Of a DNA stretch of 64,000 bases, positions 2,767 to 8,394 are shown in pieces. The position numbers were made by a program, and so were the translations under genes. The DNA is taken from contig NZ_CP039934.1 of NCBI RefSeq assembly GCF_009792295.1, positions 124,001-188,000 of the forward strand, in the 5' to 3' direction. This DNA comes from Myroides fluvii (GTDB lineage: Bacteria > Bacteroidota > Bacteroidia > Flavobacteriales > Flavobacteriaceae). Within the stretch, counting starts at the first letter, position 1. The number at the start of each line of letters is the position of its first letter. The notes below the pieces were generated by a model. That model worked only from the letters and a program-made list of their open reading frames with translations, was not told the DNA's origin and did no database searches.

Positions 2767-2791
2767 TAAAAAAGTGGATAAGCGTAGCTTA

Positions 2792-3192
2792 TCTGTTTTC
2801 TTTGTGTCTATTAACCCCCTTTGGGATATGTAATCCCTTGTGTATAAACCGTAAATGTTTTCGTTAGATCGAATGCAACGAAGTATCTGTTTTCTTTTTG
2901 TCTATTAACCCCCTTTGGGATATGTAATCCCTTGTGTATAAACCGTAAATGTTTTCGTTAGACAAATCCAACGAAGTATCTGTTTTCTTTGTGTCTATTA
3001 CCCCCCCTTTGGGATCTGTAATCCCTTGTGTATAAACCGTAATTGTTTTCGTTAGACAAATGCAACGAAGTATTGGTTTTCTTTGTGTCAATTAACCCCC
3101 TTTGGGATCTGTAATCCCTTGTGTATAAAGCGTAGATGTTTTCGTTAGACAAATCCAACGAAGTATTGGTTTTCTTTGTGTCTATTACCCCC
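2792..3192. repeat. Tandem array of a 93-94 bp unit (four full copies plus a partial)
   Basis: Unit starts are at 2792, 2886, 2979, 3073 and 3166, giving periods of 94, 93, 94 and 93 bp. Each unit contains a run of C's followed by TTTGGGAT, then AATCCCTTGTGTATAAA, GTTTTCGTTAGA and CAACGAAGTA. Copies differ by scattered substitutions. Short frames through the array on the minus strand have low-complexity translations and are not genes. There are no variable spacers, so it is not CRISPR. Confidence 0.85.
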
Positions 3193-4849: not shown

Positions 4850-4953
4850 GAACGCACAACATAGCATTGGCAAAATGGCTACGTTTACGGCCAAATTGAT
4901 ACTTTTCGTTTCTATTTCCGCCACTTCGCAAAGCCCCGAAACGTTATGTAAAA
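4850..4953. repeat. attC-like ~100 bp imperfect palindrome, copy E1
   Basis: Left arm ATTGGCAAAATGGC (4866-4879) is partly complementary to right arm GCCACTTCGCAAAGCC (4920-4935). Outer ends are ACATAGC (near 4858) and GTTATGT (near 4943). The same blocks in the same order occur in copy E2 (6434-6540). The two copies bracket the TAC module. The resemblance to integron attC sites is in plan (long imperfect hairpin, AAC/GTT-type ends), not in exact core sequence. Confidence 0.5.
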
Positions 4954-4955
4954 TT

Positions 4956-5402
4956 TTAAGATTGAGCGTTAGTAATAATATCTTTATTTATATCAACAAT
5001 AGGTAAAATAAAATTATCGAAAGCAGTATCTCTAAATCTATCTAATAATAATCCTCTAGTCGTCGAATATGCAACTGCAGCTATATTTGTGGTTAAATTT
5101 TTATCCACGCTTATAATACCTTTATCATCAAAAGTATGTAATTCACCAAAATTTTCCACATGAAAAACATATTCAATTGATATTAAAGATTTTGCTACAA
5201 CATCTTCATTTTTATCTAAAATTTTCTTGATTTCAATATCCAAAATAGCTTGTATCAAGAAGTGTTCGTCATTAAATCCTAAGTCTATTTTATTATCTAC
5301 CGTAAAATAGAAATCCTCCGATTCATTAATATCAGATACACTATCAATGTTTAACTTATGAAGTTTATAGGAAATAATATTTAATAATTCAGGGGTAAAC
5401 AT
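4956..5402 (-). CDS. SecB-like chaperone of a toxin-antitoxin-chaperone (TAC) module
   Basis: A 148-residue soluble protein. The C-terminal half (VENFGELHTF, then AAVAYSTTRGLLLDRFRDTA and FILPIVDI) follows the SecB fold pattern: beta strands, the helix preceded by a conserved Y-x-T-x-R, and the terminal hydrophobic LPxVD segment. SecB-like proteins outside the export pathway are known partners of HigBA-type antitoxins in TAC systems, where the chaperone folds and protects the antitoxin. It is the third gene of the minus-strand set: toxin, antitoxin, chaperone. The antitoxin reading frame, if read past its TAG, stops 5 bp before this ATG, so the genes were originally adjacent. This gene looks intact. 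Confidence 0.75.
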   Translation of the reverse strand: MFTPELLNIISYKLHKLNIDSVSDINESEDFYFTVDNKIDLGFNDEHFLIQAILDIEIKKILDKNEDVVAKSLISIEYVFHVENFGELHTFDDKGIISVDKNLTTNIAAVAYSTTRGLLLDRFRDTAFDNFILPIVDINKDIITNAQS

Positions 5403-5494
5403 GATTATTAGTTAGCTATTTCGTTAAATTGTCTATTATAATAAACTTCTGAAGGAGGTATTTTACAATTAGATTTTTTTGTAACTTTTGATTT

Positions 5495-5815
5495 CTATTT
5501 TATAGATTCGTGCGAAGTATAATTATCATTAATTAATTCATTAAAATCATCTTCTTTTGGTATTTTAATAAGTTCTACGCCTAATTCACATTGTAACTTA
5601 CATAATGAACGTAATGTAAAATTATGTTCACCATTTAACCATTTTGATATTTCAGATGGTTTTTTTTCTAATTTTTCCGCAAGTTCTTTTTTACTTAAAC
5701 CTTGCGATTTTAAAGCTTCATTAATTTTTAAAGTTAATTCAGCATAAATACTTGAGAATAATTTAATATCCTCAGGTATTTCATTAATCATGTTTTTTAC
5801 AAATTGACTTTTCAT
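5495..5815 (-). CDS. XRE/HigA-like antitoxin of TAC module, C-terminus cut by in-frame TAG
   Basis: 106 residues with an XRE helix-turn-helix at about residues 36-75 (GLSKKELAEKLEKKPSEISK followed by WLNGEHNFTLRSL). It starts 2 bp after the toxin stop. The TAG at 5495-5497 is followed in the same frame by 28 more codons that read as protein (KSNCKIPPSEVYYNRQFNEI) and end in TAA at 5408-5410, 5 bp before the SecB-like ATG. Antitoxins of TAC systems carry exactly such a short C-terminal chaperone-addiction (ChAD) tail. The simplest reading is that a nonsense mutation removed the tail. Without it the antitoxin may fold independently of the chaperone, or may be defective. The DNA-binding part is intact. 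Confidence 0.75.
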   Translation of the reverse strand: MKSQFVKNMINEIPEDIKLFSSIYAELTLKINEALKSQGLSKKELAEKLEKKPSEISKWLNGEHNFTLRSLCKLQCELGVELIKIPKEDDFNELINDNYTSHESIK

Positions 5816-5817
5816 AA

Positions 5818-6354
5818 TTAATATAAAATTATAGTGTCATCATCAAAAATAATTTGTGATTCTTCTATAGTTATTATTTTTTCAATAATAGCACTTTCAA
5901 TTTTGGATGCATATCCTTGTGCTTCATGAAACTTCATAGAAACATCTGGGCTATTTTGCGCTTTTTCTGATGACTTAATTCCTCCGTTAAACAAAACTAA
6001 AATATTGTCTGAAATTCTATAACAATATAATCTCAAAGGAAAATTTTTATAAAAATAATTTAATTCAAATATTCTACTACTTCCTCTATCAACTATATAC
6101 GGTAATGCTTGAGCTTTAGCCTCGTTTCTATTAAACAATTCTACCTTAGCTCCGTGAACCTTACAAATTTCATTAATTACAAATTGTAATAATAATTGAG
6201 CTGCTTCCTTAATAGTAGAGTCCTCACTTTGACCATACTTTTCAAAAAACTTATCAGCTTCAGTATAACTATCTTCATCGTCAATATCTTGTCTAACAGA
6301 ATAAATAGTGCACCTTAAGTCTTCATGCCATTTGTCTTAGAAAAATGTACTCAT
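5818..6354 (-). pseudogene. HigB/RelE-like toxin of TAC module with TAA at codon 6
   Basis: From the ATG at 6352-6354 the frame reads MSTFF, then TAA (6337-6339), then continues open to 5818 as DKWHEDLRCTIYSV... for over 170 codons. The C-terminal part (ELNYFYKNFPLRLYCYRIS, then ILVLFNGGIKSSEKA with an A-rich helix) follows the RelE/HigB mRNA-interferase pattern. The first usable start after the TAA is a TTG at 6138, which would give only 106 residues and lose about 70. Toxin, antitoxin and chaperone lie in the canonical TAC order with close spacing. Probably inactivated by one point mutation; a sequencing error or rare-start expression cannot be excluded. Confidence 0.7.
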
Positions 6355-6433
6355 TATTTTTAATTGTCAAAGTTAAGATTAACTTATAAGTTAATCTTAT
6401 TTGTTACTACTAATTACAATATTCTAAAAAAAA

Positions 6434-6540
6434 CTTCACATAACAACAGTTTGGCAAAATAGCGTTGCTCAGTTTTGGCAATAATCGAAGTTTTTGCGGT
6501 GTTAATTCACTACTTCACCAAGCTGTAAAACGTTAGTAAA
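6434..6540. repeat. attC-like ~100 bp imperfect palindrome, copy E2
   Basis: Left arm TTTGGCAAAATAGC (6450-6463) is partly complementary to CTACTTCACCAAG (6510-6522). The right end is AAAACGTTAGTAAA (6527-6540). It aligns with E1 in both arms and in the AAACGTTA end block, and has the same orientation. It sits upstream of the TAC toxin, so E1 and E2 flank the module as direct repeats. Confidence 0.5.
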
Positions 6541-6716
6541 TCTTTTAAAATAGTATGTATATATTCCATAAAGTTATTCTGTGAAATTTTAAATCCTCAC
6601 AGCTCTAAAAAATTCTATAGAATAACTTTGATTAATATTTTACTTCTTTTTCTCCACGCTTTGAAAAATTTAGCTGTTTTAGGATTTTCTATAAAAAACT
6701 GATTTACATTTTCTAG

Positions 6717-7004
6717 TTAATTTATTAATTGCTCCTTTTCATTTGCTAAACGCTCAAACTGGGATTTATCAATGGTATTCTTAACAGCTACATACATAGA
6801 AAACCCTGTTACTAAAAGTAGAAAAATGTTCAGCACTATCAAGTACAACAACCTTTTAGAACTAACAGTCTTATGTACTTTTAAAAGCTCCTCATTATTT
6901 TTTGTTATCTCTCGATGAAATTGCTCAAAAGCATTCCGTAATCGTTGTCCTTGTTCTCTCTGTCGGAGTTCAGCAAGATTCACCGTCACTTTGATATTGC
7001 TCAA
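6717..7004 (-). CDS. Small membrane protein with coiled coil, probably truncated by in-frame TAA
   Basis: 95 residues: a charged helical segment (residues 10-47, rich in Q, R, E and K), one transmembrane helix at about 51-72 (LLYLIVLNIFLLLVTGFSMY), and a charged tail. After the TAA at 6717-6719 the same frame continues for 33 protein-like codons (VNQFFIENPKTAKFFKAWRK) to a TAG at 6615. The original protein was probably about 130 residues. It resembles small accessory proteins of mobilisation or conjugative regions in architecture only; no family is recognised. It is a single gene between E2 and the DUF2625 fragment, with no operon partners. Confidence 0.55.
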   Translation of the reverse strand: MSNIKVTVNLAELRQREQGQRLRNAFEQFHREITKNNEELLKVHKTVSSKRLLYLIVLNIFLLLVTGFSMYVAVKNTIDKSQFERLANEKEQLIN

Positions 7005-7128
7005 AAATCTTTGATGGTATCTAAATTTGCGTACTCTAATTGTATGACGTGCTGAAGTAGTAATTTAGTCATATCAGTTAATTTAGGTTTGTTTCACTCA
7101 CAATATCCATTTTTGGAAATAAAAAAAT

Positions 7129-7152
7129 GACGATACCGAGTGCAACGAGGTA
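7129..7152. repeat. Dispersed ATACCGAGTG palindrome copy
   Basis: ATACCGAGTGCAACGAGGTAT has ATACC/GGTAT ends. Similar sequences lie at 3231, 3307 and 11431. There is no coding sequence here. Confidence 0.5.
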
Positions 7153-7364
7153 TCAAGCGCAAAAGTTGGGGCCAATAACCCTAATCCTCTTATTATAGTC
7201 CAGTTTACAGTTCTCATGTCCTTCGACAAAGGAGAAATGGTTAGATGGGTTAAACCGATTAACCTTCCTAACCGATTCACAGTTCGCTGTTCACTGTCAA
7301 CCGTTCGCTGTCAACCGTTCGCTGTTCATCCATTGCGCATTTACCCGTTCTTTTTCTGCGCGCG

Positions 7365-7440
7365 CTATCTCTTGGTACTATCTCTTGGTACTATCTCTTG
7401 GTACTATCTCTTGGTACTATCTCTTGGTACTATCTCGTAG
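7365..7440. repeat. 13-bp tandem repeat (CTATCTCTTGGTA), five perfect copies plus a partial
   Basis: Copies begin at 7365, 7378, 7391, 7404 and 7417, with a degenerate sixth at 7430-7440. The array lies at the 3' end of the DUF2625-like fragment and replaces the rest of that gene. A 13-bp period shifts the reading frame with every copy. Confidence 0.95.
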
Positions 7441-7526: not shown

Positions 7527-7778
7527 TTAGGTACTTAGTAGATAAATAGAACTGATCGCTAGTATGCCAAGGATAAGGATTACGATCATTATTTTCCGGT
7601 AGTTTTCATAACCAAAATATTCAACGAGTATCCTGCTTTTTCTGTTTCCCGTTGGGTCTGTTGCCCATTTCCATCTCTTTATGTATCCTATTAAAATTAG
7701 TGTAAAAATAAGACCAACAGTCATATAGGCGAGTTTGGGGTTATTTTTTATATGGTCAAAAATTTCGTCGATGTTCAT
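7527..7778 (-). CDS. Two-helix membrane protein, Imm17-like immunity protein
   Basis: 83 residues with two transmembrane helices (about 17-33 and 63-80) separated by a polar loop containing TDPTGNRKSRILVEYFGYEN. Length, two helices and the loop pattern (R-x(2)-x-F-G-x(4)-R) resemble immunity protein family Imm17 of polymorphic toxin systems. It is followed on the same strand by a broken DUF2625 gene and preceded by other small acidic hypothetical genes. This fits an array of orphan immunity genes, but no toxin is adjacent. The family assignment is moderate. Confidence 0.5.
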   Translation of the reverse strand: MNIDEIFDHIKNNPKLAYMTVGLIFTLILIGYIKRWKWATDPTGNRKSRILVEYFGYENYRKIMIVILILGILAISSIYLLST

Positions 7779-7908
7779 TGCATCTTATCTCTTTGGTTGT
7801 GTGCTGTAAAATTACTAGTAGAAAGCGAGAAGAAAGCTTTTTACCCCAATATCTCAATTGCAAACCCCTCATTTGTTCCGTTATTTGTTGAATGAAACAA
7901 AAAGCGTT

Positions 7909-8394
7909 TTACTTTTTATTACTACTTTCATTTATGCACGCGATAATTTCTAAAATATCAACAAGGATATCCTCTTTATCATCTCCTAGCATTTCAAATA
8001 ACACAAATTTATCTGTATTATTGTGAATATCAGTCAGGGCCTTTTTTAATGTTAGCAATTCCTCTTTTGAGATGTCAAAAGTTAGAATTTTTGAGCCGTA
8101 AGCATTTGTCAAATCAGCACTTCCGTTTCTTTCACTTTCAGCAACAATTGCTGTTAGTGCAATTACCGCATCTTCATAATGTACAAACTGATCGAAGTCT
8201 GGATTTTCAAGTCGGACGTTGTTATCTGTGCGTTGACTGAGTAGATCAGGTTGATCAAAATATTTTTTTAAGTCACAACGTTTATAAATTTCCGTCAGCG
8301 TTAATTTTTTACTTGGAATTTTCTCCAAAAATTGTTGAAAGTCTCCACCATAATCACTTCCAAATGCGGTGTCTTTCCATTTTTCTATTGCCAT
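7909..8394 (-). CDS. Small acidic hypothetical protein (possible immunity protein)
   Basis: 161 residues, acidic, soluble and helical, no signal peptide. Residues 70-160 (YEDAVIALTAIVAESER, later LTLKKALTDIHNN and LFEMLGDDKEDILVDILEII) form a helical pattern seen in several immunity-type proteins, but no named family is recognised. It is a separate transcription unit on the minus strand, with 200 bp to the next gene upstream. That gap (8395-8596) contains CACTTCGGTGTAAACTTG, possibly a degenerate cassette boundary. Function unknown. Confidence 0.6.
   Translation of the reverse strand: MAIEKWKDTAFGSDYGGDFQQFLEKIPSKKLTLTEIYKRCDLKKYFDQPDLLSQRTDNNVRLENPDFDQFVHYEDAVIALTAIVAESERNGSADLTNAYGSKILTFDISKEELLTLKKALTDIHNNTDKFVLFEMLGDDKEDILVDILEIIACINESSNKK

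Follow-up and report, generated by a model that had tools for sequence, protein, structure and literature searches.

The window, meaning here the whole stretch of 64,000 nucleotides analyzed from the Myroides fluvii genome, contains at positions 4956–6354 three adjacent genes that are co-oriented on the minus strand and encode a toxin, an XRE/HTH antitoxin and a SecB-like chaperone, an order that is kept in relatives. The gene order and protein families anticipated in the preliminary description, those of a toxin-antitoxin-chaperone (TAC) module, were thereby borne out, with the toxin being HigB-like only probably; the nonsense codons that it had read in both the toxin and the antitoxin gene are likewise in place, and the corresponding genes of relatives are whole. 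The source genome consists of one contig with a length of 3,766,904 bases (99.85% complete). The features of the locus are as follows:

5818..6354, minus strand: toxin gene, probably HigB/RelE-like, closed at codon 6 (30 relatives; PADLOC PDC-M64)
6337..6339, minus strand: toxin nonsense codon TAA, the one TAA within the family match
5495..5815, minus strand: XRE/HTH antitoxin, 106 aa as encoded, closed by TAG at 5495–5497 (PF01381, E 2e-11)
5408..5494, minus strand: disused ChAD-like tail, 28 codons plus TAA at 5408–5410, a homologue of the C-terminal tail found in full-length relatives
4956..5402, minus strand: SecB-like chaperone, 148 aa, intact (structure model; Foldseek match to 5mtw; PADLOC PDC-M64C)
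6374..6399, no strand: presumed operator, a 26-bp perfect palindrome immediately ahead of the toxin start
6660..7093, minus strand: pseudogene of a 157-aa protein, probably a membrane protein, lying in two frames with an extra in-frame stop (tblastn)

The toxin frame begins with an ATG at 6352–6354, is closed by the expected TAA at codon 6 (6337–6339), and reopens at 6336 to continue to a stop at 5818–5820. A search with the 172-aa stretch that follows the TAA identified a total of 30 protein relatives, the best of which is 178 aa long and shows 94% identity at 100% query coverage; 28 of the 30 are 161–184 aa in length, and the remaining two hits, of 125 and 154 aa, begin well inside the protein and may be fragments. 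The eight closest relatives are 177–178 aa long and start at the equivalent of position 6354, rather than at the TTG near 6138 that had been considered as a possible true start. Between the TAA and position 6138 there is no in-frame ATG, GTG or TTG, hence no ordinary start, and a working toxin is therefore not expected from this gene. Comparison with relatives also revealed differences in three neighboring codons, among which the TAA lies. The toxin family occurs in 31 of the 398 genomes of the genus and 19 of the 397 genomes of the family (the source genome is counted in both); of the 33 places in the genus, the only one besides the window to carry a stop is a weak match (genome G713, E 1.6e-9), and none was found at the other 18 places in the family genomes. 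The source genome has no second toxin copy at E values up to 1, no relatives of the toxin piece were found in plasmid records, and none of its intact relative P0001 in phage records.

Searches of Pfam, NCBIfam and PDB sequences did not match the window toxin to any named toxin, and its assignment comes from a structure model of P0001 (pLDDT 87.7), for which the top six Foldseek matches were toxin-antitoxin chains of Streptococcus pneumoniae (6af3/6af4), all of them weak by E value (0.03–0.1), with probabilities of 0.89–0.99 and TM scores by target of 0.57–0.67 (6af4: probability 0.99, E 0.03). These two entries we take to be HigBA. The toxin is thus probably HigB-like, on a weak fold match of the modeled relative that is suggestive rather than firm.

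The antitoxin gene begins with an ATG at 5813–5815 and is closed after 106 aa by the TAG at 5495–5497, past which 28 in-frame codons (5411–5494), containing the motif EVYYNRQF, lead to a TAA at 5408–5410 that lies 5 bp before the chaperone ATG (5400–5402), exactly as described beforehand. The 106-aa product is 96–98% identical to three 135-aa proteins, the tails of which align with the 28-codon stretch. The ten closest antitoxins are all 135–136 aa in length (the window's own copy, P0035, aside), so that relatives with a 106-residue antitoxin and the same stop, which would have spoken against decay, were not encountered among them. The position of the TAG is occupied by tryptophan in all 16 of the closest rows, P0031–P0047, with the window's own copy left out, and intact triads of toxin, 135-aa antitoxin and chaperone are present in two genomes of the same genus. 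The ChAD extension is accordingly missing from the window antitoxin as encoded and present in its relatives. As a separate observation, the antitoxin P0048 of Sphingobacterium faecium has a shorter tail than its relatives P0047 and P0050 and may represent a second tail loss.

The chaperone has no Pfam match above the cut-off and received no name from NCBIfam, a PDB sequence search with it returned nothing below E 0.7, and profiles of the toxin and the chaperone gave no sequence match at E below 0.3 among solved structures. The best Foldseek match of its structure model (pLDDT 88.9) was 5mtw (E 5.8e-6, probability 1.00), a structure of Rv1957 bound to a ChAD peptide; SecB came next, and each of the 19 chains that reached E values of 0.001 or better belongs to an Rv1957 or SecB entry. 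No second chaperone copy was detected in the source genome at E up to 0.001. PADLOC models were run on the window toxin piece, the window chaperone and, as a stand-in for the antitoxin, the intact relative P0031; all three matched the defense system PDC-M64 (E 1.5e-37, 1.6e-17 and 5.6e-29, respectively), which is a candidate by annotation only and compared with which the window copy is broken. No paper naming PDC-M64 was found in the open-licence literature searched.

The palindrome at 6374–6399 overlaps the sequence TAACTTTG at 6368–6375, which fits the Bacteroidetes -7 element. When the DNA ahead of the toxin match was scanned in 128 rows, including the window's own, the matches above a length threshold comprised a perfect palindrome of at least 16 bp with the same CTTATAAG core in 9 of the 127 other upstream regions and the arrangement ACACTT-nn-AAGTGT in 18 further ones. 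The 26-bp palindrome, with this recurring core, is the likely operator for the XRE antitoxin.

The same gene order is found in the HigB1-HigA1-Rv1957 module of Mycobacterium tuberculosis, with which the locus also has the SecB-like chaperone fold in common (5mtw being the best match), and HigA1, like the window's relatives, is an HTH antitoxin with a C-terminal ChAD tail. The ChAD tail is the answer given by laboratory work to how chaperone addiction arises (PMC5105189): HigA1 lacking its last 42 residues is reported there to neutralize the toxin without the chaperone, fully in Mycobacterium smegmatis, whereas in Escherichia coli at the highest induction the rescue falls below that by full HigA1 plus chaperone. 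Residue W108 of the HigA1 tail is described as a key chaperone contact (PMC6377645). The window antitoxin of 106 aa is approximately as long as the product of this deletion (42 residues off 149, leaving approximately 107), and its TAG replaces a conserved tryptophan at the opening of the tail, comparable to W108 in HigA1, both being parallels by position. Unlike the M. tuberculosis module, the window has a naturally tail-less antitoxin and a broken toxin gene. A three-part logic with a SecB-like chaperone is also found in two anti-phage systems, CmdTAC, the title of whose report names an ADP-ribosyltransferase, and HigBAC of E. coli (PMC11980606); a report on jumbo phages touches on chaperone addiction only briefly (PMC12619734). 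Neither a naturally tail-less TAC antitoxin nor the window family was found described in the open-licence literature searched, which is weak evidence.

The stretch beyond the TAG had been proposed to be the region in which TAC antitoxins carry their chaperone addiction, and the distribution of the tail across the family agrees with this. Related loci were collected with the toxin as query and in part with the chaperone; a scan of contigs using only the toxin piece yielded no confirmed relative, and an alignment of toxins then matched 468 loci, of which only the best-scoring 80 were kept, making the family sample uneven. Viral contigs contributed five loci with the toxin alignment, none with the antitoxin P0031 and two with the chaperone. 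A total of 136 distinct antitoxin ORFs were obtained, from which the window's own and one with fewer than 450 bases downstream were removed. Among the resulting 134, a SecB-like neighbor was detected by profile for 114, whose tails extend 31–98 residues past the HTH core, and not detected for 20, of which 18 have tails of 0–14 residues; the other two (loci L106 and L107, with 52-residue tails) have a SecB-like neighboring ORF that was missed by the profile and recognized by eye, and they were moved to the class with a chaperone on this basis. A tail of at least 31 residues is therefore present in 116 of 116 antitoxins with a SecB-like neighbor and in 0 of 18 without. Twenty of these 116 rows came from chaperone-based searches and could not have been chaperone-less, because they were fetched by chaperone similarity; with these rows left out, the association is 96 of 96 with the chaperone and 18 of 18 without it. 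The window, which has the chaperone and encodes 20 residues past the core, is the sole exception to this pairing.

The 18 tail-less rows, from Mucilaginibacter, Chitinophaga and others, are two-gene homologues that combine a homologous toxin with a tail-less HTH antitoxin whose frame measures 88–115 codons from stop to stop; no SecB-like neighbor was found for them, and the toxin frame is split in one (L080). That the extension of a TAC antitoxin is absent from its two-gene homologues is known for other families (PMC5105189), and the contrast between tail-bearing and tail-less forms is now seen within one family. In a quickly built toxin tree with long branches (133 rows, of which 125 are labeled), the tail and the chaperone switch three times each, together in three of three cases, and the hypothesis that the tail-less class arose once was rejected (p-AU 6e-7, subject to the same long branches); a sign test on these three switches gives p 0.25, since three pairs cannot reach significance.

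The preliminary description had proposed that the toxin was lost first and the addiction tail afterwards, a sequence of events that the substitutions in the three genes do not support. Rates were compared on amino-acid changes alone and by Fisher tests, which ignore relatedness. Where the three nearest relatives all agree, the window antitoxin is changed at 1 of 102 sites before the TAG and at 6 of 26 sites after it (p 2.6e-4). This p value overstates drift, because tails change more quickly than the remainder of the antitoxin even when intact: in leave-one-out controls they took 5 of the 12 unique changes. Under the stricter requirement of invariance in six relatives, 3 of 15 tail sites are changed, and the six changes might reflect a few clustered events. 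The toxin body, compared with four relatives, is changed at 1 of 129 invariant sites, this one being beside the TAA (p 8e-5 against the tail). Ten differences separate it from its sister P0001, of which one, next to the TAA, is attributable to the window, three to P0001, and six are ambiguous, and the end branch of the window toxin accounts for 0.021 of the 0.065 path to P0001. With three references, the window toxin is changed at 2 of 137 sites and intact relatives used as controls show 3–13 changes at 136–146 sites, a comparison that is not like for like because the window has a nearer sister and the branches of the controls are longer. The chaperone is changed at 10 of 134 sites when two relatives are used (p 0.026 for the tail against the chaperone) and at 4 of 88 sites invariant in eight relatives, values that lie within the range of its relatives; this gene, expected to be dispensable after tail loss, therefore shows no clear decay. 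Judged by these amino-acid changes, constraint on the toxin body has not visibly relaxed, which implies that the toxin stop is recent and offers no support to decay that began with the toxin. The comparison suggests, with moderate confidence, that the tail was lost before, or at about the same time as, the toxin was closed; the order of losses stays uncertain because intact tails evolve fast and only amino-acid changes were compared.

The reading favored here, with a probability of roughly 0.7, is that a TAC module belonging to a Bacteroidota family is decaying at this locus, its toxin gene closed recently and its antitoxin freed from addiction, with tail loss suggested to be first or concurrent. 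In its intact form, a toxin predicted to be a ribonuclease of the RelE/HigB fold would be neutralized by the XRE antitoxin, whose ChAD tail would keep it unfolded unless bound by the SecB-like chaperone encoded by the next gene. The encoded antitoxin stops at the position of the conserved tail-opening tryptophan and should thus be chaperone-independent; by analogy with the HigA1 deletion, the clipped 106-aa protein would fold and bind without the chaperone and would still bind DNA. The operator, the DNA-binding domain and the chaperone all remain, so that the locus probably now amounts to a toxin-free autorepressor with an orphan chaperone. It looks like a fossil between two known states of TAC modules, and its antitoxin like nature's own ChAD deletion. 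A more specific sequence of events, in which the TAG, by replacing the tail-opening tryptophan, released the antitoxin at a time when the toxin still worked and loss of the toxin followed only later, is put forward tentatively, at odds clearly below even. If this is true, tail-first loss would be an intermediate in the switch between TAC and two-gene modules that is seen three times on the toxin tree. The origin of the addiction of toxin-antitoxin systems to SecB chaperones was named as an open issue in 2014 (PMC4257090), and a Bacteroidota family that has both tail-bearing and tail-less homologous pairs provides material for testing the mechanism of the switch.

The strongest competitor, to which we give a real if distinctly smaller chance, is that the toxin died first and that the tail, and later the chaperone, decayed with nothing left to neutralize. 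Loss of a toxin is generally expected to be harmless, and a toxin frame split by an in-frame stop or a frameshift accompanies a whole antitoxin at three other loci (L027, L074 and L080), with the chaperone also whole in two of the three; antitoxin-chaperone pairs without a toxin are, moreover, mentioned in print (PMC4257090). Against this order, only one of the ten toxin differences from P0001 is clearly the window's and three are those of P0001, whereas the tail is changed at 6 of 26 sites.

It is improbable that the locus has been remodeled into a working two-gene module in which translation of the toxin begins past the TAA, the antitoxin has no tail and the chaperone is no longer needed. 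The unrelaxed toxin body, the intact operator palindrome and the fact that 18 of the 134 related antitoxins belong to tail-less two-gene homologues would all fit such a module, but the three usual start codons are absent in frame before 6138, and a rarer start further in would cost the protein strand beta-1 (residues 4–11 of the toxin model). An error of sequencing or assembly behind one or both stops is rated equally low: the toxin stop does lie among three differing neighboring codons in a gene with few window-derived changes elsewhere, but the genome is a near-complete single contig, there are two separate stops with further changes beyond the second, and the adjoining gene (6660–7093) is broken too. 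Read-through of the TAG, which would make an addicted and a free form of the antitoxin, had been offered as an alternative and agrees with a tail that keeps its frame over 28 codons and stops 5 bp short of the chaperone. It is the least credible reading, because the six changes after the TAG hit sites that are invariant in the three nearest relatives; in addition, none of the 16 closest antitoxins ends at this position, and the toxin stop would have to be explained separately.

The gene upstream of the module is also broken. This pseudogene at 6660–7093 matches its 157-aa relative by tblastn with 75% identity over 117 aa plus a piece in a second frame, and a whole copy of the 157-aa gene is present in the same genome at approximately 3.033 Mb (6896–7369 of the excerpt L183). 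The stretch around the whole copy also carries an ORF that, by eye, resembles the end of a serine recombinase; with the neighboring gene broken and its whole copy beside a recombinase-like ORF, the DNA around the locus is probably of a mobile type and in decay. Copies of a repeat, approximately GCTTNGCGAAGTGGCGGA within a context of 100 bases, lie to either side of the module (minus strand, 4918–4935 and 6506–6523), and the repeat recurs in the genome at 3027636 and 3030981; allowing up to two mismatches, it has nine genome matches against two for a reversed control, some of them plainly unrelated. This arrangement resembles a cassette, but the idea of an integron cassette was set aside as unproven, since the flanking repeats fold no better than shuffled sequences and all matches to the integrase family are below the cut-off, as they are in 14 of 14 control genomes. 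Genes for the polymorphic-toxin immunity proteins Imm17 and Imm68 lie near the module at 7527–8394 on the minus strand, and on its other side four tandem copies of a unit of approximately 94 bases occupy 2778–3192, approximately 95 bases from a tRNA-Ser gene (2598–2683).
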